Source of the DNA: a virus
IMG/VR virus record: IMGVR_UViG_3300017714_000053
Coordinates: 1-35,694 of that record
Reading direction: 5' to 3' (one strand)
DNA: 35,694 nt
Shown: piece by piece, positions 6,527 to 35,694 of the stretch
Numbering within the stretch: the stretch's first letter is position 1
How the letters are laid out: each line of letters opens with the position of its first letter
The notes under the pieces: generated by a model
Databases searched by the model: none
What the model was told of the DNA's origin: nothing
Seen by the model: only the letters and a program-made list of their open reading frames with translations
Position numbers and translations under genes: made by a program

Positions 6527-6721
6527 ATGAAACACAAAACAACTATGCAAATATTGGAAGCCATACACGATGCAGTTCAACTTGGAAACAAGTTACATAA
6601 AGAGATTGACACACAAAAAATACCTAAAAAAGAGCAAGAGAATATTAAGTATTTGGGTCAATGCCTGCGGTCTATGGACTTCATCTTAAGCGATGAACGA
6701 AATAGAAACTCTACCACATAA
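6527..6721 (+). CDS. Hypothetical small protein, 64 aa
   Basis: A lysine-rich helical protein without recognisable family. The frame opens at a GTG (6500) that is inside the upstream hairpin, so the ATG at 6527, after ATTTATTTATCAAC, is the likely start. It overlaps the DnaB start by 29 nt in a different frame, which couples it to the helicase. Such small helical proteins next to DnaB can be helicase loaders or modulators, but nothing in the sequence proves this. Confidence 0.6.
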   Translation: MKHKTTMQILEAIHDAVQLGNKLHKEIDTQKIPKKEQENIKYLGQCLRSMDFILSDERNRNSTT

Positions 6722-8021
6722 TGCAGAAGCAGAGGAAGCTGTCATAGCTTGCTGTCTTCTTGATGACTCCCCGGCTAACTACAATTCTGTTACAGAATTA
6801 GTAAGTGCCGATGACTTCTACATCCACAGGAACCAATGTATCTTTGGTGCCCTCGGTAAGCTAGCTGATGCTAGCCTGCCGGTGGATGAGATACATCTGT
6901 CCGAACAACTAACCCGTGATGATAACCTTGATGCCGTAGGTGGAGTAACTTCCATCTACAGTATCATGGATCGGGTTGAGACTTCTATGCAGATGCATCA
7001 CTATGCAAAGATAGTTAAGGAGAAGTCCAACCTACGTAAGATGAACCGGGCATACCGGGTCGCAACCGAAAGCATAATGACTCAGTCGGATTCAGCTGAG
7101 AACATTAAGCACACGGTTGACTCAGAGGTTAACCGGATTCACTTCACTCAAGAGAAGCCCAATGATTTAAGCTCAACCGCTGAGGAGATTAAGGACGAGT
7201 TCCGCAAGATGCTAGCCGGAGAGTTTGTTACGGATGCATTGCCTACTCACATCGGTAAACTCGATCAGCAGTTAGGTAACCGGGGCATAGCACCGGGTGA
7301 GGTGATCACCCTCGCGGCACCGACATCATGCGGTAAGTCAGCCTTGGCTCTTAACATAGCCCTCAAGTCAGTCACTCACAACAATGCACCCTGTGCTGTA
7401 TTCTCCTTGGAGATGCCACAGAAGCAGTTGTTTAAACGAATGGCTCAGACCCTAGCCGGTGTGAACATCAAGCAGATAAGTGACGGGGTTATATCAGAGG
7501 AGAATATGAAGAAGGTTGATGAAGCCATTGATCAACTTCACTCCGTTCCGTTATACACCAGTCACAACGTCAAGTCAGCAGAGGATCTAGCATCTCAACT
7601 ACGTAAGCTAGTGGACAAGCAAGGTGTAAAGCTCGCCGTGATTGATTACCTTCAACTCATCCCGTTTAATTCCGGGAAGGTTGGCAAGGCGGAAGGCATT
7701 GCAAACATCTCTCATAAGATTAAGCAACTAGCCCTTGAGTTAAACATCGGTATCCTGCTGTTGGCACAAGTCAATCGTGAGGGTGCCAAGAGGGAGGGAG
7801 GCTTGGACATCTATGATCTAAAGGACTCAGGAGATATTGAGAATGATGCGGACGTTGTCCTTCTCATGTATCCACAACAGGGTAACTTCGAGGACTCAAA
7901 GATGTCTGACTCGAATGGACCATACACTAACCTTGAGTATAAGATAGCTAAGAATCGTGAAGGCGAACGAGGCACCATCGGATACTTTAAATTCTACCAC
8001 ATAACAGGAAGATTCTACTAA
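6693..8021 (+). CDS. dnaB: Replicative DNA helicase, DnaB type, 442 aa
   Basis: Residues 1-105 form the DnaB N-terminal domain (LPHNAEAEEAVIACCL ... HHYAKIV). The C-terminal RecA-like domain starts near residue 180 with IGKLDQQLGNRGIAPGE, Walker A APTSCGKS (209-216), the SLEMPQKQL motif, Walker B VIDYLQLI (316-323), LAQVNREG and the KDSGDIENDADVV motif ending in the arginine-finger segment AKNREGERG. It unwinds DNA at the fork as a hexamer. There is no primase domain and no phage polymerase in view, so host primase and polymerase must be recruited. Followed by a DnaA domain IV-like gene with overlapping TAATG. Confidence 0.95.
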   Translation: MNEIETLPHNAEAEEAVIACCLLDDSPANYNSVTELVSADDFYIHRNQCIFGALGKLADASLPVDEIHLSEQLTRDDNLDAVGGVTSIYSIMDRVETSMQMHHYAKIVKEKSNLRKMNRAYRVATESIMTQSDSAENIKHTVDSEVNRIHFTQEKPNDLSSTAEEIKDEFRKMLAGEFVTDALPTHIGKLDQQLGNRGIAPGEVITLAAPTSCGKSALALNIALKSVTHNNAPCAVFSLEMPQKQLFKRMAQTLAGVNIKQISDGVISEENMKKVDEAIDQLHSVPLYTSHNVKSAEDLASQLRKLVDKQGVKLAVIDYLQLIPFNSGKVGKAEGIANISHKIKQLALELNIGILLLAQVNREGAKREGGLDIYDLKDSGDIENDADVVLLMYPQQGNFEDSKMSDSNGPYTNLEYKIAKNREGERGTIGYFKFYHITGRFY

Positions 8022-8338
8022 TGAATAATAAATATAAAATACTTGAAGCAGTAAGCAACTCATGTGAGGTGCCAGTAAAAATAATATCAGGCACCCGTCG
8101 AACAAAGAAGGCATCCTATGCCCGGGACATCTGTTCGTTCCTCATGCACAAGTGCGGATACTCACACGAAAACATCAGCCGGATACTTAACCGGGAAAGA
8201 ACATCGGTAACTCACGGCATCAAACGTGTAAGCAAACGTATCCAAGAGGACAGCAATCGTGGACGATTCATGAGGGTTCACATCCGGGATATACTTGACA
8301 ACTCACTCAAGATGAACTATATAAATATAGATGAATGA
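8021..8338 (+). CDS. Stand-alone DnaA domain IV-like DNA-binding protein
   Basis: Residues 12-70 match the C-terminal DNA-binding domain of DnaA: a CEVPVKIISGTRR opening, KASYARDICSFLMHKCGYSHENI, then NRERTSVTHGIKRV, which corresponds to the DnaA signature helix-turn-helix that reads the DnaA box. The AAA+ domain is absent and total length is 105 aa. It sits immediately after the DnaB gene (TAATG). The simplest reading is an origin-binding protein that brings DnaB to phage DNA; the iterons at 35218-35273 are the best candidate sites. An alternative is a transcription regulator that binds, or blocks host DnaA from, the same boxes. Confidence 0.8.
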   Translation: MNNKYKILEAVSNSCEVPVKIISGTRRTKKASYARDICSFLMHKCGYSHENISRILNRERTSVTHGIKRVSKRIQEDSNRGRFMRVHIRDILDNSLKMNYINIDE

Positions 8339-8611: not shown

Positions 8612-11600
8612 CTAGTAGCCTAGTAGCTTGGGATCAATCAAAGGCTTAGGCGGATCAATCATCGGAACTGGTCCCGGGAAGTTGATTCCATACTTACCTT
8701 CCTTTGCTAGGGCTTGACGTTGTTCACGAACTGCATCACGTCCGGCATCAGAATATCTCCAATACCATAGGTCGTCCCCGGGTAAAGCGAACTTAGCTAA
8801 GGGTGCCAAGCTATCAGCTTTAATAACTCTTTCCGCAGTCTCGAAGATACTCATCGGTGCCGGTGTAACATAACCAAGGAATGATTTTGTTGGACCCTCA
8901 CGTTCAAGGCTTTGTAGGGTATACTTGTTGATCACACCCGTGGCGAGTAGCATATTCTCAAGGACTATATCCTCGATGACCAAGGGCTTACCACGTAGCC
9001 ATGCCACGATAGCATCAACCGGCACACCTGTAAGAACCATGTAGCCCATGATTTGAATAAGGTTACGTAGCCCTTCAACTCTCTCCAAGTAATTCCCCTT
9101 CTTACCAGTGGTTAGCTCAGGGATAATCTTATTAAGAGTTTGCTTACGGATGTAGGCAAAGTGTCTGATCTGGAACGAACGTAAGTTATACCATATCCGG
9201 CTACCGGGATTGCGGTTGTATGTCAACGGCATTTCAAAACGTCCGATTGGTTGGACATCAGCAAGCTCATTGTATATAGCCTCAATCACGTAGTCGTTCT
9301 TTGTTCCTGCCTTCAGTCCGGAGATCGTAAAGATATACTGATCACCCTGAAGGAACTTCAAGTGACTCACTAGGTTCTTGTAAGCCGGAGAGTTCTTATC
9401 AGAACGTGCCGCCCTCTGCATACTAAGATAAGCCGCATTGATTGATGCGGTCTTCATCTTCTTATCCATTGCCGCAAATCCAGTGATCAATGTTTGGGCA
9501 CGGAACAGTTTACCAAGTTTGCCTTCGTCCATTGTCTCTAGCTCTTGAGTAATCTTCTTACCTGCTTTACCCAGATCCTCGAGTGCAACCTTGTTGGTTA
9601 CAAATCCACGGGCGGTGTCAACGAAACCATACCGGTAAAGTGTAAGAGCAATATCCTTTAGCTGAATCAAGGTTGATCCCAAGTTAGTAAGTAAGGTATT
9701 GTATGACCCCATCCGGAGTGTCTTACTCAACTTGCTCTCTGGTTTCTTGCTTGAGAATATATCACGAACCATCCCGGTTATCTGTTGGAAGTCTCCGTCT
9801 GACAACTGACCGGCACGACGAAGTTCGTTCATACGTTTTCCTAGTGCCCCACTTGGTGCCTGAGTCTCGCCTTCCATTGGCTTCATTCCGCCAATCAGCC
9901 TCTTGGTTTCAATGGCAGTAACGGCATCAAGGATGTATCGGTTAAGTGCCTCAACCGGATCCACGTATGAGTCAAACATATCGTCAGAGATTAGATCAAC
10001 GTCCCTTGCTTTAATGTTACCCGGCACCTTAGCACCGGCAGGTAATGCATTGAAGTTACGACGAACAAAGTTCTCGATGGCTATAGCTTCTGAGTTTGCA
10101 TCAAGAGGAGGAAGCCCCTTGTCCCTTCTGTTTGCATTGACCCGGCTGATAATAGCATCAGCTTGTTTGTCGGATAGACCTAGCTTCTTCTTTAGCTTGG
10201 ACTTATCGTCAATAGCTCGAGGGAAGTAGTCACGTATAAATTCTATCTCTGTCCCCTGCCTTACTTGCTCGTCATACAATTCATTTAGCACACCACGAAC
10301 ATCGCTGTGGAACCAATCGTATAGGTCATGCTTGCGAAGCAGTTCGTCCCGACGACCGATTAACTCAGCACGTTTCTTCGGATCAATAACATTTGGATTA
10401 TTCTTTTGGAAACGAACAGTTACCTTGTCGCTGTTAAACTTTTGATACACCCGTGGGTTGTCTACGTTTACCTGAACTGCATTCTTGGCTAGGACTAACG
10501 AACCAACCTGCACAACTTCGTCAGCAGATATGACCGGCTTGCCGGTGCCCTTGTTGTAGAAGTAAGATGCACGTTCTGGATTCATTCCGATCTGTGTCCA
10601 TCCTTCCTCCTTCATAAACTGTTTGGCTTCATTGACTATGTTCTCAGAAGTATCATTCACAAAGTTACCGAACATACGTGCTATAGGAACCTTCGCTTGT
10701 CCGGCGGCAATGTTCATTGCGGCGGTTGGAATACTGAAGAACTGAACGTTCTTTATTCTAGCAAATCCCCCGTAGCCTATAATGCTACCCCTCTCCTCTG
10801 TCCCGTCATGCACCGCTACAGCCCAAGTCTCATAGTTCTCGTAGGCATTGACATCGTAACGTAAAGCAACAGGAACACCGTCCTCAACTTGAGTGTTGAC
10901 ACCAATGATCGGCATATGATTGTGAGCCGTCTTAGTAGTTACAGTGTAGGCTACTTCCTTCGACGTAGCCGGAGTAGGCACCTCGTTGTAAATAGTGATA
11001 GGCATCTCCACGTATGGGGATCCGGGAACAAGCCCAGCCTTCTCACGATAGCTTTGACGTTTAGCTTCTACCCTTTGACGTAGCTCCCTGTTGTCGGGAT
11101 CCTTTGCTAGATCCTTCTGCAACTCCTTGAGTTGCATGGCATCGGGCTTTAGAATATAACTCCGGTGTCGTTTGGTCCGGGGTAATCCGGTAGTCGGGTT
11201 AATGTTTCTGTATTCCCGTTTGTCGTCCTCGCTGATATTGAGTATCCGATTAGGGGACTCATCGATATACGTTACACCCTCGATTGGTTTGGGTGTGCCA
11301 CGTTGCCTCTTAACTACAATGCCCTGATTGTCAATGACATCAGATGACGGGATGATTTCGTCAGCTTTGGACTGGAGGTAGCTGAAGTAGGCTTGGGTAT
11401 CAACCCCTTCGTAGTCATACCAGCCTTTGGTAAGGGTGAAGTTCTTTGTCTTGTCTGTTTTCCTTGCGATGATGTTGCCATTTTTATCCTTTAATATGAA
11501 CCGATGTTCGGGGTTATAAGTTTTTGTTTTATTTTGCTTTCCTATTTCATCACGTATTTCTAAACGTGTGTCAAACTTAAATACGTATGTATTACTATCA

Positions 11601-14600
11601 TTGTCAACAAACTCAAATCGATCCGGCTTGCCCTTCTCCTTGATGTATTGAAAATTGAAATCCCACTTGCCATACTTTCCTTCACGGACTGCGGCACGTT
11701 GAACTTCTCCGTATTTTTTAATTTGTATAATGGCATCAATGGATCCGTGACTGACCTCTTGTCCTGAATTTGCTACCCATGTTTCCCAATGAAATCTACC
11801 AACGTCCGGGCTGTTTGTTACACCAAGTTGACGGTAGGCTTCCTGCACATTTGAACGTGTTTGACGGACAGCAATTTCGTTAATCACCATGCCGGAAATG
11901 TTGTCGAGAATTTTACTATATCCTCCGCCCTTTAATTCAGCACCATCGTAAATAGATGTATTTTCCTTTAGGTTAAGCTCTTCACGTAAAGTCTCTGCAT
12001 CCCAAAACTGTTCTGTTCGGACACGATCAACAACATATAGGTCCTGCCTTCCGGTTGTTAATAAAATAAAATCAAAGATCTTATTATTGAATGACATCCC
12101 GGAAGCAACTGACTGCCATTTTTTTCTAAGCTCCAAGGTAGGTGTATCCTTGTCGGACAACATTCTATGCAGTGCTTCCATTCGAGTCATCCCGTCGAAC
12201 TCTCCGCCCTCAATCTTTAGCCCTGCCTTTGATAGGAAATTTTTTCCAAATGATCTAAGATTTGACTTGGCACCGGATCCGGGTAATCCTTCAGGAAGAA
12301 CTTCGGCTACCCAATTAAGGTAATCCTCGATCCCGGAATCTATTTCACCTTCGACAAGAACCTGCTTGCCATTCTTGTCCTTAACGTTTCTGTTGTTCTT
12401 ATCCTTCTTGGGGACCATTATCTTTATCATGTTCCCACTGAGGAACTTTCCATCAGCCGCCATCTTTATCCACTTCTGGATACCATTAGTCATCGCCACC
12501 ATGAATGCTGACTCTTGAGGGTATGGGCTTATTCCTATGGAAAGAATATTCCACAAGAAATATTCAGCCGATTCGCCTTGGGTCATCTCGCCATTCTCAA
12601 ACATCCTGCGAATTTCTTTTCCTCCATCAAGACCCTCTGTGGCTAGCCGCCTTTGTTCGGGGGATACAATGCTCAGTTGATCTAAGACACCCTCTAATGT
12701 TGTCAGACGAGATAGCCCTTCTGGAAAACGTGGGATAGTTACTTCGCCCGTTTCTTTATTTACATTACGTGTGCCCGTCATTCTGGACATTAACTGAACC
12801 CATTGTTGCCTGTCTGATAATGCATTGGGATATTTGTTAATGAGTGCCTTAGCCTTTATCATTACGGCTTCTCCACTCTTTCCGGCTTTACTGTTTAATA
12901 TCTCTGAAGCCGGTATGTCTCTCTCTCCGGGCATGGTGAGACGTTTATCGATTTGCTTCCTGACATCTATGTCATCACCTAGATCAAGCTCCTGCTGACC
13001 CATTTCAAAAACGGTTTCCGGATCACCCCGGGAAACCTTGTGTGCTACGTTAACAAACATAGCCATGACATTGTCGGGAGTGGCATCAGCCAAGAACATT
13101 GGCTTGCCTACTAATACTCTGGCAAATCCATTGATGATCTTCTTGATCTCACTTAACAAACTCTTTTGCTTTTGATTTAAATTGTTTGGATCAAATCCAC
13201 CTTCGACTAATGTCGCACCGAACTCAGCTAGGTATTCGGAGTAACGAACATCACCATCGTATTGATTGGCAAATGCTTGCAACCGGTCAGCCATAGCACC
13301 GAAGCCGGACTGACGTAACTGCTTGTCAATAGATTGCTGAAACTCTTTCATCCGCTTGGTATCACCACGAAATGCTTCGTTGAGAATCATCTCCCAAGCC
13401 TCGTGTGCCACCGTGGTTGAGTTAGCCTGTGCATCATTGATGACGAGTGCTATTGGCTTACCGCCCTTGAAGAACGTAGCACCATTGTCCATGTCGGTAA
13501 ACTGTTCAGCCAAGCTGGTTGCTTCAGCTAAACCAATCTTACCCTTGAGTGTCTGAACTATATTAGCCCGGGTTTCCGCAAGTGTTCCGCCAACAATTAT
13601 GTCTACATTCGGGAATGCAACACGAACAAAGTTAAATGCATTACGTGCATTTTCAGATAAATCATTTAGGTATGTATCGGACTGAGGTGCTTCTACTAAT
13701 CTTTGAGATGCATCGATATTAACTTCTGATAAATCATTACGAGAAGCTATCTTTCCGGCGGCTCTAGTTTTTGTAACAAGCTCACGGCTCATTTCCATAA
13801 CGTCCTGTTTACTTATACCTAAAGTATTTGTAAGCCAGTCCATGAACTGTTGCTTCTTGGCGGACTTACCGTCCGGTCGGACAATGTAAAGTGCACGGTC
13901 AACATCGCTCTCAAAGTTAACTGTAACACGACCATAGTTAACCCGGGGCTTTCCTAATGACTTCGGCAATTTGGCACCCTTGATACCCGGGATAGGATCC
14001 CGACTTTCTTCATTAACGTCCTGACGTGGAAGCGGCAGACGTGTTCCTTCATTGATAACATTGCCAAACTGATCTACTAACGTGTGCTGTTCTTCAGCGG
14101 TTGAGTTAGATGACGAGTCATTCGTATTTATAATTGGAATGCCATTCACTGTTTCTACTTCGCCAACAGGAATGACGGGGACTTGTTCGGGGTCAATGCC
14201 CTGAGCTTCCGCCTGTTCAAGTCTTTGACGTTCAGCCTCACGAGCCGCATCTAGTTCGCTTTGAGCTTCGCTATTAGCTTGTGACTCCTGACTGTCTGGA
14301 TCCAGTGATAACAATCTACCTAGCTCACGGAAGTCACTGTTGTTAAACTTCTTTAGCTTCTTTAAAATTCTGCTACCCTTTGACACACGATCAGCAAGTG
14401 AAAGGGTTCTCTTGCCTACGTTTAATTCAAACTTACGGAACAGTCCCTTGATACGTGGATCGATACGGTCCAATACTTCTGACACTGGTTCAAGTTGATC
14501 ACCTATTAGTCTACCAATAGCTGAACGACCACCACTTACCCGGGCATCATCTCTAATTCTTTTGAGAACCTTGGGAGACTGTTCTTGAATGGCGGCATCA

Positions 14601-16618
14601 ACCGTTTGCAGAGTTTTTTCTGCTTGTCTTTTTTGTTGCCTAATGTCAGCCCTGACTTGTCGTGCTTCATCAAGGGTTAGATCTCCTTCCTCGACCCCAG
14701 TTATGCTGTCTTCTAATTCACTATCGAGTTCAAGCAATCTATTTTCCGCATCAGCCTTACGTTTTTCTAGCTTCAAGAACTTCCTGCCAGCACGAAACTT
14801 TTTAAGTTTCTCTATACGTAATTCAGCCTGCTTCTTTTGGGCTATTGATTCGTTGACTGTAGTGTTGTCCGTGTCAGTTGCGGTAATACTTTCTATGACA
14901 TCGAACTCATTAGCTTTCTTGTAGTTAATGTAGTTGTCACCTTCTGCCTGAACATATGCGGCGGCTTCCGCCCCCTCGATAACCTCTACCTCGTTTACTA
15001 ATTCAAACAGTCCTTCTTCTCCGTATAAATCAATGCGGTCACGAGTAGTATTGCCAAGTGCATCTTGGTCGTCTACGTCTAAAGTCTCAGGAGCAGTGAC
15101 GGGAACATACTCTTCCCCGGGTTTTATGTCCTCTTGTGCAGTAGCTTTAGTTGCTACGATTGGTGTAAACTCAACGGGCTTAGTCGATAGTATTTCTCCC
15201 TGATTTGTTAGCCCCCCGCTTAGAACCTCGAGGGCTTCAGCTTCCGTCTCAGCATATACAACACTCTCACGTATTTCTCCACCGGCAACCTCATACTTTA
15301 CCTTGAATCTTGGCTTAGATAAAAGCGAAGAAATCATTTCGGGACTAGCTTGACCGATGTTATTTAGGTTGACCTCTTCTACCTTCCCGGGGGACAGGGT
15401 GCGGAACACACCTCCGGTAAGTTCCATGCCTCCGGTGTATGTGGCTCCAACTGAACCACCAATTAGAACATTAAGAAGATAATCCTCTACATTTTCTGCT
15501 GAGAATATCTCATTCCCTTGATCGTAAAAAATGGTAGCCAATGTTTCAAACATGACCGCCTCGGTGCCTTCTTCGGCTCCCTCTACGGCAAATGATTTAA
15601 ACATTCTGCCCAAGGTGAATCCGTCGAGCTTTGCTTTTTTGTTAAAAAATTGTGCGGCTTTAGTTGCACCCAGTTGTTTTATAGCAACCCTATTAAGAAT
15701 AGCTCCGGCACCGGCTGATAACATATGAGCAGGAATTACCTGTGCATATTCCTCATCGGTGAACTCAGCATAAGGTTTTTCAAAAGTTTCTTCAGCCCGA
15801 CGAACACTTTGCGAGTAAGCATTAAAGGGATAATCAAGACCCCTTGTGACCGTTTGTGTGGCAATTTGACCAACCCCTTGAAGAACTTGACCAACGTTGC
15901 TACGTTCCATCTCAGGAGTTACACCAACCTTGTTGGGCACCTTGTCCGCTAGGATTCTAAGGTCATCACCGACTTTTCTTGCCGTTTGCTTAAAACTTTC
16001 TCTATCTATTCCTTCGGTAGGTTGAACAATCGGGGCACCTCCACCGGGGACACCCACCACTGGAACCATTCCAACGTCACCCATCGCGGTAACCAAACCT
16101 GCCGATGATTCGACTATTGATCTAGCTCCTCCTGCTAAAATACTTTTAGGAATCTGGTCAAGGGTGACTCCTTCTCCACTCGGCATGTTGTAAAGTCTTT
16201 CGGCTGTGGGATCAGGTTCTCCTATAGTATTCTGCTCCTCATACATCCGGTTGAACTCAGCACGTTGCTCAGGGGACATATCCGAAACTTGCTTAGGGGG
16301 ATTTAACTCCCGTGCCCTAGCGGCTCTTCGTTCTGCACTTGATGCCATGTATTCGGCGGCACTCGCAATCGGAATCTCCTTGACCATAGCCTCCGGTTGA
16401 TCCGGGGTAGGCTCAACAGCAGGAAGAACTAACTCATCGTCAGTAACTGCTGACTCATCAATGACTACATCATCTGTATCACGAACAAGGTTCTGTTCGT
16501 AAACAGGAAACTTCTTTATATATTGGTCTACTAATACATCGTCCGAAACATCACCGTAGGCATTGTATTTGGAACGAATGGTATTAGCAAATTCAGAAAC
16601 AGAATATTGCTTTGCCAT
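8612..16618 (-). CDS. Giant polyvalent ejection/internal virion protein, 2668 aa
   Basis: A huge protein from the late operon end, of the polyvalent class many podoviruses inject with their DNA. N-terminus: repeat-like FANTIRSKYNAYGDVSDDVLV. Residues about 590-680 form a charged coiled coil. Near 1071 is VAHEAWEMI with YLAEFG near 1131, like a zincin whose second His is replaced by Glu. Near 1530 is GRQDLYVVDRVRTEQF. Near 2020 is SYFYNKGTGKPV, a motif recurrent in large polyvalent proteins, and near 2300 RMGSYNTLLTNLGSTLIQLKD, typical of the LPD38 domain. The C-terminal 200 residues are helical and partly hydrophobic (GYMVLTGVPVDAIVAWL). Role inferred: forms or fills the ejection channel and delivers effector domains. 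Stop is TAG followed at once by TAA. ATG preceded by TTAAAT. Confidence 0.8.
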   Translation of the reverse strand: MAKQYSVSEFANTIRSKYNAYGDVSDDVLVDQYIKKFPVYEQNLVRDTDDVVIDESAVTDDELVLPAVEPTPDQPEAMVKEIPIASAAEYMASSAERRAARARELNPPKQVSDMSPEQRAEFNRMYEEQNTIGEPDPTAERLYNMPSGEGVTLDQIPKSILAGGARSIVESSAGLVTAMGDVGMVPVVGVPGGGAPIVQPTEGIDRESFKQTARKVGDDLRILADKVPNKVGVTPEMERSNVGQVLQGVGQIATQTVTRGLDYPFNAYSQSVRRAEETFEKPYAEFTDEEYAQVIPAHMLSAGAGAILNRVAIKQLGATKAAQFFNKKAKLDGFTLGRMFKSFAVEGAEEGTEAVMFETLATIFYDQGNEIFSAENVEDYLLNVLIGGSVGATYTGGMELTGGVFRTLSPGKVEEVNLNNIGQASPEMISSLLSKPRFKVKYEVAGGEIRESVVYAETEAEALEVLSGGLTNQGEILSTKPVEFTPIVATKATAQEDIKPGEEYVPVTAPETLDVDDQDALGNTTRDRIDLYGEEGLFELVNEVEVIEGAEAAAYVQAEGDNYINYKKANEFDVIESITATDTDNTTVNESIAQKKQAELRIEKLKKFRAGRKFLKLEKRKADAENRLLELDSELEDSITGVEEGDLTLDEARQVRADIRQQKRQAEKTLQTVDAAIQEQSPKVLKRIRDDARVSGGRSAIGRLIGDQLEPVSEVLDRIDPRIKGLFRKFELNVGKRTLSLADRVSKGSRILKKLKKFNNSDFRELGRLLSLDPDSQESQANSEAQSELDAAREAERQRLEQAEAQGIDPEQVPVIPVGEVETVNGIPIINTNDSSSNSTAEEQHTLVDQFGNVINEGTRLPLPRQDVNEESRDPIPGIKGAKLPKSLGKPRVNYGRVTVNFESDVDRALYIVRPDGKSAKKQQFMDWLTNTLGISKQDVMEMSRELVTKTRAAGKIASRNDLSEVNIDASQRLVEAPQSDTYLNDLSENARNAFNFVRVAFPNVDIIVGGTLAETRANIVQTLKGKIGLAEATSLAEQFTDMDNGATFFKGGKPIALVINDAQANSTTVAHEAWEMILNEAFRGDTKRMKEFQQSIDKQLRQSGFGAMADRLQAFANQYDGDVRYSEYLAEFGATLVEGGFDPNNLNQKQKSLLSEIKKIINGFARVLVGKPMFLADATPDNVMAMFVNVAHKVSRGDPETVFEMGQQELDLGDDIDVRKQIDKRLTMPGERDIPASEILNSKAGKSGEAVMIKAKALINKYPNALSDRQQWVQLMSRMTGTRNVNKETGEVTIPRFPEGLSRLTTLEGVLDQLSIVSPEQRRLATEGLDGGKEIRRMFENGEMTQGESAEYFLWNILSIGISPYPQESAFMVAMTNGIQKWIKMAADGKFLSGNMIKIMVPKKDKNNRNVKDKNGKQVLVEGEIDSGIEDYLNWVAEVLPEGLPGSGAKSNLRSFGKNFLSKAGLKIEGGEFDGMTRMEALHRMLSDKDTPTLELRKKWQSVASGMSFNNKIFDFILLTTGRQDLYVVDRVRTEQFWDAETLREELNLKENTSIYDGAELKGGGYSKILDNISGMVINEIAVRQTRSNVQEAYRQLGVTNSPDVGRFHWETWVANSGQEVSHGSIDAIIQIKKYGEVQRAAVREGKYGKWDFNFQYIKEKGKPDRFEFVDNDSNTYVFKFDTRLEIRDEIGKQNKTKTYNPEHRFILKDKNGNIIARKTDKTKNFTLTKGWYDYEGVDTQAYFSYLQSKADEIIPSSDVIDNQGIVVKRQRGTPKPIEGVTYIDESPNRILNISEDDKREYRNINPTTGLPRTKRHRSYILKPDAMQLKELQKDLAKDPDNRELRQRVEAKRQSYREKAGLVPGSPYVEMPITIYNEVPTPATSKEVAYTVTTKTAHNHMPIIGVNTQVEDGVPVALRYDVNAYENYETWAVAVHDGTEERGSIIGYGGFARIKNVQFFSIPTAAMNIAAGQAKVPIARMFGNFVNDTSENIVNEAKQFMKEEGWTQIGMNPERASYFYNKGTGKPVISADEVVQVGSLVLAKNAVQVNVDNPRVYQKFNSDKVTVRFQKNNPNVIDPKKRAELIGRRDELLRKHDLYDWFHSDVRGVLNELYDEQVRQGTEIEFIRDYFPRAIDDKSKLKKKLGLSDKQADAIISRVNANRRDKGLPPLDANSEAIAIENFVRRNFNALPAGAKVPGNIKARDVDLISDDMFDSYVDPVEALNRYILDAVTAIETKRLIGGMKPMEGETQAPSGALGKRMNELRRAGQLSDGDFQQITGMVRDIFSSKKPESKLSKTLRMGSYNTLLTNLGSTLIQLKDIALTLYRYGFVDTARGFVTNKVALEDLGKAGKKITQELETMDEGKLGKLFRAQTLITGFAAMDKKMKTASINAAYLSMQRAARSDKNSPAYKNLVSHLKFLQGDQYIFTISGLKAGTKNDYVIEAIYNELADVQPIGRFEMPLTYNRNPGSRIWYNLRSFQIRHFAYIRKQTLNKIIPELTTGKKGNYLERVEGLRNLIQIMGYMVLTGVPVDAIVAWLRGKPLVIEDIVLENMLLATGVINKYTLQSLEREGPTKSFLGYVTPAPMSIFETAERVIKADSLAPLAKFALPGDDLWYWRYSDAGRDAVREQRQALAKEGKYGINFPGPVPMIDPPKPLIDPKLLGY

Positions 16619-34834: not shown

Positions 34835-35104
34835 GAGATGTCGTCGCAAAAAGTTTTGACCCCCTCCCCCCATGTCGCCGTAATGAGACTGAGACTCAAT
34901 CGCAATAAGCACGGATCCCTAAATGAGACTGGGTCGCAAAAAGTCGGGCTGTAGTTTTAATGAGACTGGGACTCAATATCAATTAAGAATCATTCTAATG
35001 TTCCACGTGGAACAATTTATTTCTCTCATAAAGAAAGTATTACGGGGGTGAATTTGGAATGAGACTGACTCTCAATAACCCTTAATGCGACTGAATCTCA
35101 ATAG
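34835..35104 (+). repeat. Six degenerate copies of a GAGACTG-type repeat
   Basis: Copies start near 34835, 34885, 34925, 34962, 35061 and 35087. The core is (AAT)GAGACTGRGACTCAAT; copies 1 and 3 share the downstream TCGCAAAAAGT. Several have dyad symmetry (TGAG...CTCA). Distances are irregular (26 to 99 nt), so this is not a CRISPR. They flank the parS-like site. Likely protein-binding sites for replication, partition or regulation. Confidence 0.75.
34999..35014. promoter_or_regulatory. parS: parS-like centromere site
   Basis: TGTTCCACGTGGAACA is a perfect 16-bp palindrome. The Bacillus subtilis parS consensus TGTTCCACGTGAAACA differs by one base, and symmetric forms are known to bind chromosomal ParB. 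No ParB or ParA gene is recognisable in the window. It would let host ParB load on phage DNA. Another CACGTG-binding protein is possible. Confidence 0.75.
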
Positions 35105-35217
35105 TTGAGGTTTGCCCTGTATGCTCGTCTGACGGCTTCCGAAGGGTAGGGTGCCATTTGAAAATCGGACGGCTTAAAGGGGCATTTACGGCTCACTACG
35201 GGCTATACGATATTACG

Positions 35218-35273
35218 TAAGTCGTTGATAAAAGTCATAAGTCGTTGATACCAATTCTGTAAGTCGTTGATAA
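35218..35273. repeat. Three iterons, TAAGTCGTTGATA
   Basis: TAAGTCGTTGATA occurs at 35218, 35238 and 35260 (spacing 20 and 22 nt, about two helical turns, so on one DNA face). Copies 1 and 3 extend to TAAGTCGTTGATAA. The complement begins TTATCAACG, which matches seven of nine bases of the DnaA box TTATCCACA. This suggests initiator binding, with the phage DnaA-like protein as candidate. An A/T-rich stretch follows at about 35385-35415. Confidence 0.8.
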
Positions 35274-35415
35274 AATACTCAGAAAACGGGATCAACCGCC
35301 GTAATGGTTTCATTATTTTGTATGAGGTGTTCAAAATGATTGATTTCTATTCACAGGTTATTCATGTATACTACTTTCATCATCTAATTATAACCTAATA
35401 AATAACCTACTAAAT

Positions 35416-35547
35416 ATGGACATACAAATAAGATACCAAAACTACCGCCTCAATAGCCTTCGTCAGGGCATCGAACCTATGGCATTTGAGGAATGGCAAT
35501 CAGAGATACAGGGGGCAGTCAAAGCAGTGAAGACCGCACTCAAATAG
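35416..35547 (+). CDS. Tiny early protein, 43 aa
   Basis: MDIQIRYQNYRLNSLRQGIE, then PMAFEEWQSEIQGAVKAVKT and ALK, ending in TAG. ATG follows AACCTACTAAAT, the same leader type as the ArdC gene next to it. It is the first gene right of the iterons. Short helical, no known family. The similar leader to other early genes supports that it is translated. Confidence 0.5.
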   Translation: MDIQIRYQNYRLNSLRQGIEPMAFEEWQSEIQGAVKAVKTALK

Positions 35548-35590
35548 ACCCGAATTTTAACCTAATACACACACCTAACTACTACTAAAT

Positions 35591-35694
35591 ATGAGCACTA
35601 AAAAAGCAAAACTGGACCTTCACGAAACTATCACAAACCGCTTCATTGAAGCACTAAACAAGGGCACTAATCCGTGGACAAAGCCGTGGAAAAG
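35591..35694 (+). CDS. ArdC-like anti-restriction protein, N-terminus (3' truncated)
   Basis: MSTKKAKLDLHETITNRFIE then ALNKGTNPWTKPW is the N-terminal ArdC domain (DUF1738 type, which binds single-stranded DNA). The window ends within it. The C-terminal peptidase half starts at base 1. A direct join of the two ends changes frame and stops after nine codons, so some sequence is missing between them, probably the rest of the N-terminal domain. Leader CTAACTACTACTAAAT precedes the ATG. Confidence 0.85.
   Translation, partial: MSTKKAKLDLHETITNRFIEALNKGTNPWTKPWK

Follow-up and report, generated by a model that had tools for sequence, protein, structure and literature searches.

Iteron origins of theta plasmids (RK2, P1 and pSC101 types) contain phased direct repeats, adjoined by an AT-rich stretch and by DnaA-box-like sites. 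In DnaA, origin recognition and ATP-driven opening are fused in one protein. The phage locus analysed here shares features with both systems. The window is a whole IMG/VR record of 35,694 bases and carries three exact copies of a 13-bp sequence, which are listed with the other features in Table 1. The initial annotation had described three repeats in phase with the helix, and this was confirmed, since the spacings of 20 and 22 bp each amount to about two helical turns. Thus the copies are direct repeats in helical phase as in an iteron-type origin, and in other clades the spacings were 21, 22 and 21 bp. No other 13-mer of the window formed a comparable triplet, and none appeared in 100 Markov shuffles (0/100).

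Table 1. Features of the window that bear on the proposed replication control, in order of position.
Feature	Position	Strand	Remarks
DnaB replicative helicase	6693..8021	+	PF03796 E 3.4e-55, PF00772; stop overlaps domain IV start by 1 nt
Stand-alone DnaA domain IV protein, 105 aa, proposed iteron-binding	8021..8338	+	PF08299; AlphaFold model; tracks iterons
Five imperfect palindromes AATGAGACTG-CTCAAT	34880..35103	.	same control region
Perfect parS-like palindrome TGTTCCACGTGGAACA	34999..35014	.	conserved beside iterons throughout the window's clade
Conserved block of about 75 nt, core CCANNNGAAAATCGGA	35114..35188	+	left of iterons; conserved across clades
Iteron copy 1 (TAAGTCGTTGATA)	35218..35230	+	exact copy
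Iteron copy 2 (TAAGTCGTTGATA)	35238..35250	+	exact copy
Iteron copy 3 (TAAGTCGTTGATA)	35260..35272	+	exact copy
DnaA-box-like doublet CTATTCACA / TTATTCATG, 11 bp apart	35347..35366	+	13/16 scored bases

The two ends of the record do not join seamlessly. An anti-restriction/metallopeptidase gene at one end (1-612) looks continued by an ORF at the far end (35590-35694), though a short segment of it is absent. The gene thus appears split across the two ends, and the record probably represents a circularly permuted, nearly complete genome in which a short gap remains. Nearly a quarter of this genome is taken up by a single ORF of 2,668 aa on the late strand (8612-16618). Several genes are preceded by a CCTACTACTAAATATG-like leader (660-674, 35407-35418, 35582-35593), with no clear Shine-Dalgarno site. 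Cumulative GC skew had its minimum at 35673, at the iteron end, and its maximum at 8684. Both extremes fall where the direction of transcription changes; the skew follows transcription and was therefore rejected as independent evidence for an origin.

The product of the gene directly after dnaB matched Bac_DnaA_C (PF08299) over the full domain (E 7.5e-12, 45.5 bits, cut-off 31.5), and its full-length relatives scored 32.6-47.9 bits. An AlphaFold model built from 15 relatives (pLDDT 89) superimposed on E. coli domain IV bound to DNA (1J1V) with Z 15.8 and an rmsd of 1.5 Å over 92/94 residues, and on M. tuberculosis DnaA (3PVP) with Z 15.6; the best six entries were all DnaA. The 105-aa protein has the domain IV fold with its basic loop and helix-turn-helix. 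DnaA domain I and the AAA+ domain III are absent from it, nearly all of its length being domain IV. The initial annotation was therefore right that this gene encodes the DNA-binding domain of DnaA without the AAA+ part, and the structural comparison with DNA-bound domain IV that it had proposed gave a clear match. Its term 'split initiator' is doubtful, because no partner AAA+ part was found: none of the early genes scanned matched the DnaA ATPase.

In a sequence alignment, the E. coli contact residues R399, R407, T436 and K443 correspond to R27, R35, S62 and R69 of the phage protein, while D433 and H434 are replaced by a variable residue (E59) and an invariant arginine (R60). R27, R35, R60, S62 and R69 are conserved even among domain IV proteins that are only 31-36% identical. 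Under the residue-to-base assignment that we take to hold from 1J1V, the conserved minor-groove arginine could recognise the YTAT common to DnaA box and iteron, and the changed recognition helix could contact the part in which the two differ. No relative of the protein was found among named phages (tblastn, 50,697 records), and none was confirmed in bacterial genomes.

Comparison among phages supports the link between the domain IV protein and the iterons that the initial annotation had supposed. An iteron pair (two copies with 4-12 bp between them) was found in 41 stretches of IMG/VR viral contigs, and a pair with 6-10 bp between copies was absent from all 84,980 bacterial genomes searched. 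The iteron pattern picked out seven contigs longer than 25 kb, and a Bac_DnaA_C protein is encoded on all of them but G009 (6/7). Among the 38 genes of the window, only 8021-8338 was present in 12/12 chosen carriers and 0/5 relatives without iterons, with the limits that the carriers were partly picked for having the domain IV protein and that contig G073 lacks the iteron region. The protein was not found in the iteron-less DnaB relatives G046, G059, G060 and G063 (27-39 kb) or in phage C75C1. Conversely, whole-record scans allowing one mismatch found no iterons in DnaB relatives without domain IV, apart from G043, which has iterons and whose contig ends inside DnaB. Furthermore, where contigs had been chosen by the protein alone and held the conserved block, iterons were present in 13/14; the exception is L136, on whose contig there are none. 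The statistical weight of this co-occurrence is modest, because the DnaB tree, in which two of the rows scored negative (L019 and L033) are truncated by the end of the contig, implies only about two to three independent gains or losses. G009 and L067 were set aside, since their pair pattern is a 25-bp tandem repeat with no block, and G009 also lacks domain IV. The repeat in G009 (C1 31904-31941) contains the same 13-mer and lies in an apparently unrelated 52-kb phage.

The 64 different iteron copies gave the consensus TATCAACGACTTA, followed by Y and R, with a spacing of mostly 20-22 bp; read on the minus strand, the conserved iteron is TATCAACGACTTAYR. Copies differ chiefly at positions 1, 3 and 7, and in L141 and L143 also at 4 and 8; their apparent invariance is somewhat inflated, as most contigs were picked by two exact copies. 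The core is almost constant between phages whose domain IV proteins share only 31-36% identity. According to the initial annotation, the complement of the repeat is identical to the DnaA box at 7/9 positions. That figure holds for copies 1 and 3 (TTATCAACG against TTATCCACA), but copy 2 (GTATCAACG) reaches only 6/9. The likeness is weak, because 7/9 was also reached by 2.3% of random 15-mers of the same composition and the first T of TTATCAACG is not conserved in relatives (T 33, C 26, G 4 and A 1 across the 64 copies), where there is a pyrimidine preference only.

A site for another host protein was also considered. TATCAACGACTTA fits the published IHF consensus WATCAANNNNTTR perfectly, for which the chance in a random 15-mer is 0.0002, and the repeats might then be host IHF sites that bend the control region. 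However, the middle bases of an IHF site (NNNN) are free, yet G, A and C there are constant in all 64 copies, and this invariance of bases that IHF ignores makes the explanation unlikely despite the perfect match. Some variants also break the consensus (TACCAA in L011 and L023, TATTAA in L141 and L143), and the footprints of three IHF sites 20-22 bp apart would overlap. A host factor would, moreover, leave both the tie to a phage gene and the absence from bacterial genomes unexplained. We consider IHF binding very improbable, the least credible of the explanations weighed here.

Host DnaA calls for a similar consideration, and here the surroundings of the iterons matter. The iterons differ from the 9-bp box TTATNCACA, whereas a separate doublet resembles it and is the better DnaA-box match. 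Scored as YTATNCACA, it reached 12-14/16 in most of 28 regions (at least 13 in 0.25% of shuffles) and scored about as expected by chance in relatives that lack the domain IV protein; in the window the second box is only 7/9. The doublet stands between the iterons and the early genes, where the AT content of the region is highest (72-74% at 35300-35399). The initial annotation had the phage bypassing host DnaA. This is unsupported, because the doublet, which matches the DnaA box better than the iterons do, lies downstream of them in most carriers, and host DnaA may well take part. The doublet could be a host DnaA site, but the phage protein might equally have a second site there, or the doublet might belong to the early promoter. 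It could also be proposed that host DnaA binds the iterons, the doublet or both, and that the phage protein acts only as a takeover factor, by competing with host DnaA or by blocking the host origin. Two iterons at 7/9 and the TTATNCACA-like doublet would agree with this, and a lone domain IV could act as a dominant competitor. However, conservation of the iterons runs about 6 bp past the box, the core varies most at box position 8, and a site for the host protein only would not track a phage gene. We regard this explanation as improbable. Given the iteron variation and the tie to the phage gene, neither IHF nor host DnaA is likely to be the sole iteron binder.

The rest of the control region has a conserved layout. 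The 75-nt block was also found at L093 909-985, and its core CCANNNGAAAATCGGA is almost invariant. Its orientation stays constant when the iteron array is inverted, since the array flips between clades with its place unchanged. It had no Rfam match and no predicted consensus structure, for which reason an RNA element was rejected; it is a candidate binding site or promoter. In G042 (L021 251-263), which is closely related to the window phage, only one iteron copy is present; it is inverted and arranged as in the other clade, which suggests that the array is subject to exchange or flipping. The parS-like palindrome is possibly bound by host ParB, no ParB being found among the early genes scanned. 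The five palindromes AATGAGACTG...CTCAAT are probably operators of some regulator, and similar sequences were seen in other clades. No sigma-70-like promoter match was found in the iteron region, which says little as the consensus may not be that of the host.

This arrangement brings in the chief rival explanation, in which the domain IV protein would control transcription by binding the iterons and repressing or activating the early (perhaps also the late) operon, with replication starting elsewhere or otherwise. The iterons do lie upstream of the early operon, between divergent operons and near the operator-like palindromes, the array changes orientation while keeping its position, and the fold also resembles Trp repressor (Z 5.0-5.5). 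However, the domain IV gene is locked to dnaB by a TAATG overlap of stop and start codons in 17/17 distinct loci, with proteins down to 31% identical. Phage C75C1, whose TerL is 72% identical to that of the window, has neither domain IV nor iterons and carries in their stead a protein (CDS0015) that matches phage replication initiators (E 1.8e-29), DnaD-like loaders (2.6e-23) and O-like proteins (2.3e-7). In the window, neither the domain IV protein nor the other early proteins scanned matched the Lambda O or DnaD-like family profiles, and the early genes contained no further recognisable initiator or loader. The replacement in C75C1, together with the lack of another recognisable initiator in the window, favours a role in replication. 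The argument from replacement draws on a single phage, because no replacement initiator was recognisable among ten proteins scanned from other relatives without domain IV. On balance we consider regulation unlikely, though a good deal less so than either host-factor explanation.

With phased repeats, a domain IV fold, co-occurrence, gene coupling to dnaB and a conserved layout observed, we lean towards the explanation that the phage origin is marked by its cognate domain IV protein, which recruits DnaB. The divergent intergenic region at 34.65-35.42 kb would be the replication control region of the phage, and the three iterons would be the binding sites of the 105-aa protein. Phased sites would set several copies of domain IV on one face of the DNA. 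Contact of these copies with DnaB, the product of the coupled upstream gene, would then bring the helicase to the AT-rich stretch at 35300-35400, and host DnaA drawn to the doublet may open the strands there, as happens in iteron plasmids. Iteron binding, origin activity, the contact with DnaB and the help from host DnaA are all steps that we infer. It is possible, though somewhat less likely than not, that a domain IV by itself, translated from the DnaB stop codon and without an ATPase, is a minimal initiator which reads its own 15-bp iteron in place of the DnaA box and delivers the helicase. The comparison suggests that a widespread group of uncultivated phages has a stripped-down way of choosing where replication starts. 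No account of a stand-alone phage domain IV with iterons was found in the literature covered, which includes only a minority of subscription journals. If the proposal is true, origin recognition would be separable from ATP-driven opening, a DNA-reading module of 105 aa would suffice for helicase placement, and this group of uncultivated viruses would have a recognisable origin signature. Natural variation of protein and site would also make a domain IV specificity code, and the minimal needs of helicase placement, directly testable.

Among known systems, DnaA itself has a DNA-binding domain homologous to the phage protein. The whole fold is common to E. coli (1J1V) and M. tuberculosis (3PVP) domain IV, and the basic-loop arginines R399 and R407 and the lysine K443 of E. 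coli have their counterparts in R27, R35 and R69. In contrast, domains I-III are absent, the D433/H434 positions are changed to E59/R60, and the proposed target is extended and altered from TTATCCACA to TATCAACGACTTAYR. Lacking the ATPase, the phage protein would form no ATP-driven filament and open no strands. The locus is like theta plasmids in its repeats about 21-22 bp apart, with an AT-rich stretch and DnaA-box-like sites adjoining. It is unlike them in that a single DnaA domain IV takes the place of a winged-helix Rep protein as the proposed initiator, and that this initiator is encoded 8-9 kb away in the operon of dnaB. As with the lambda-type O proteins and the DnaD-like loaders, of which CDS0015 of C75C1 is an example, the proposal is that a phage protein marks the origin and brings in the helicase; those proteins are unrelated to the domain IV protein, and C75C1 has neither it nor the iterons.
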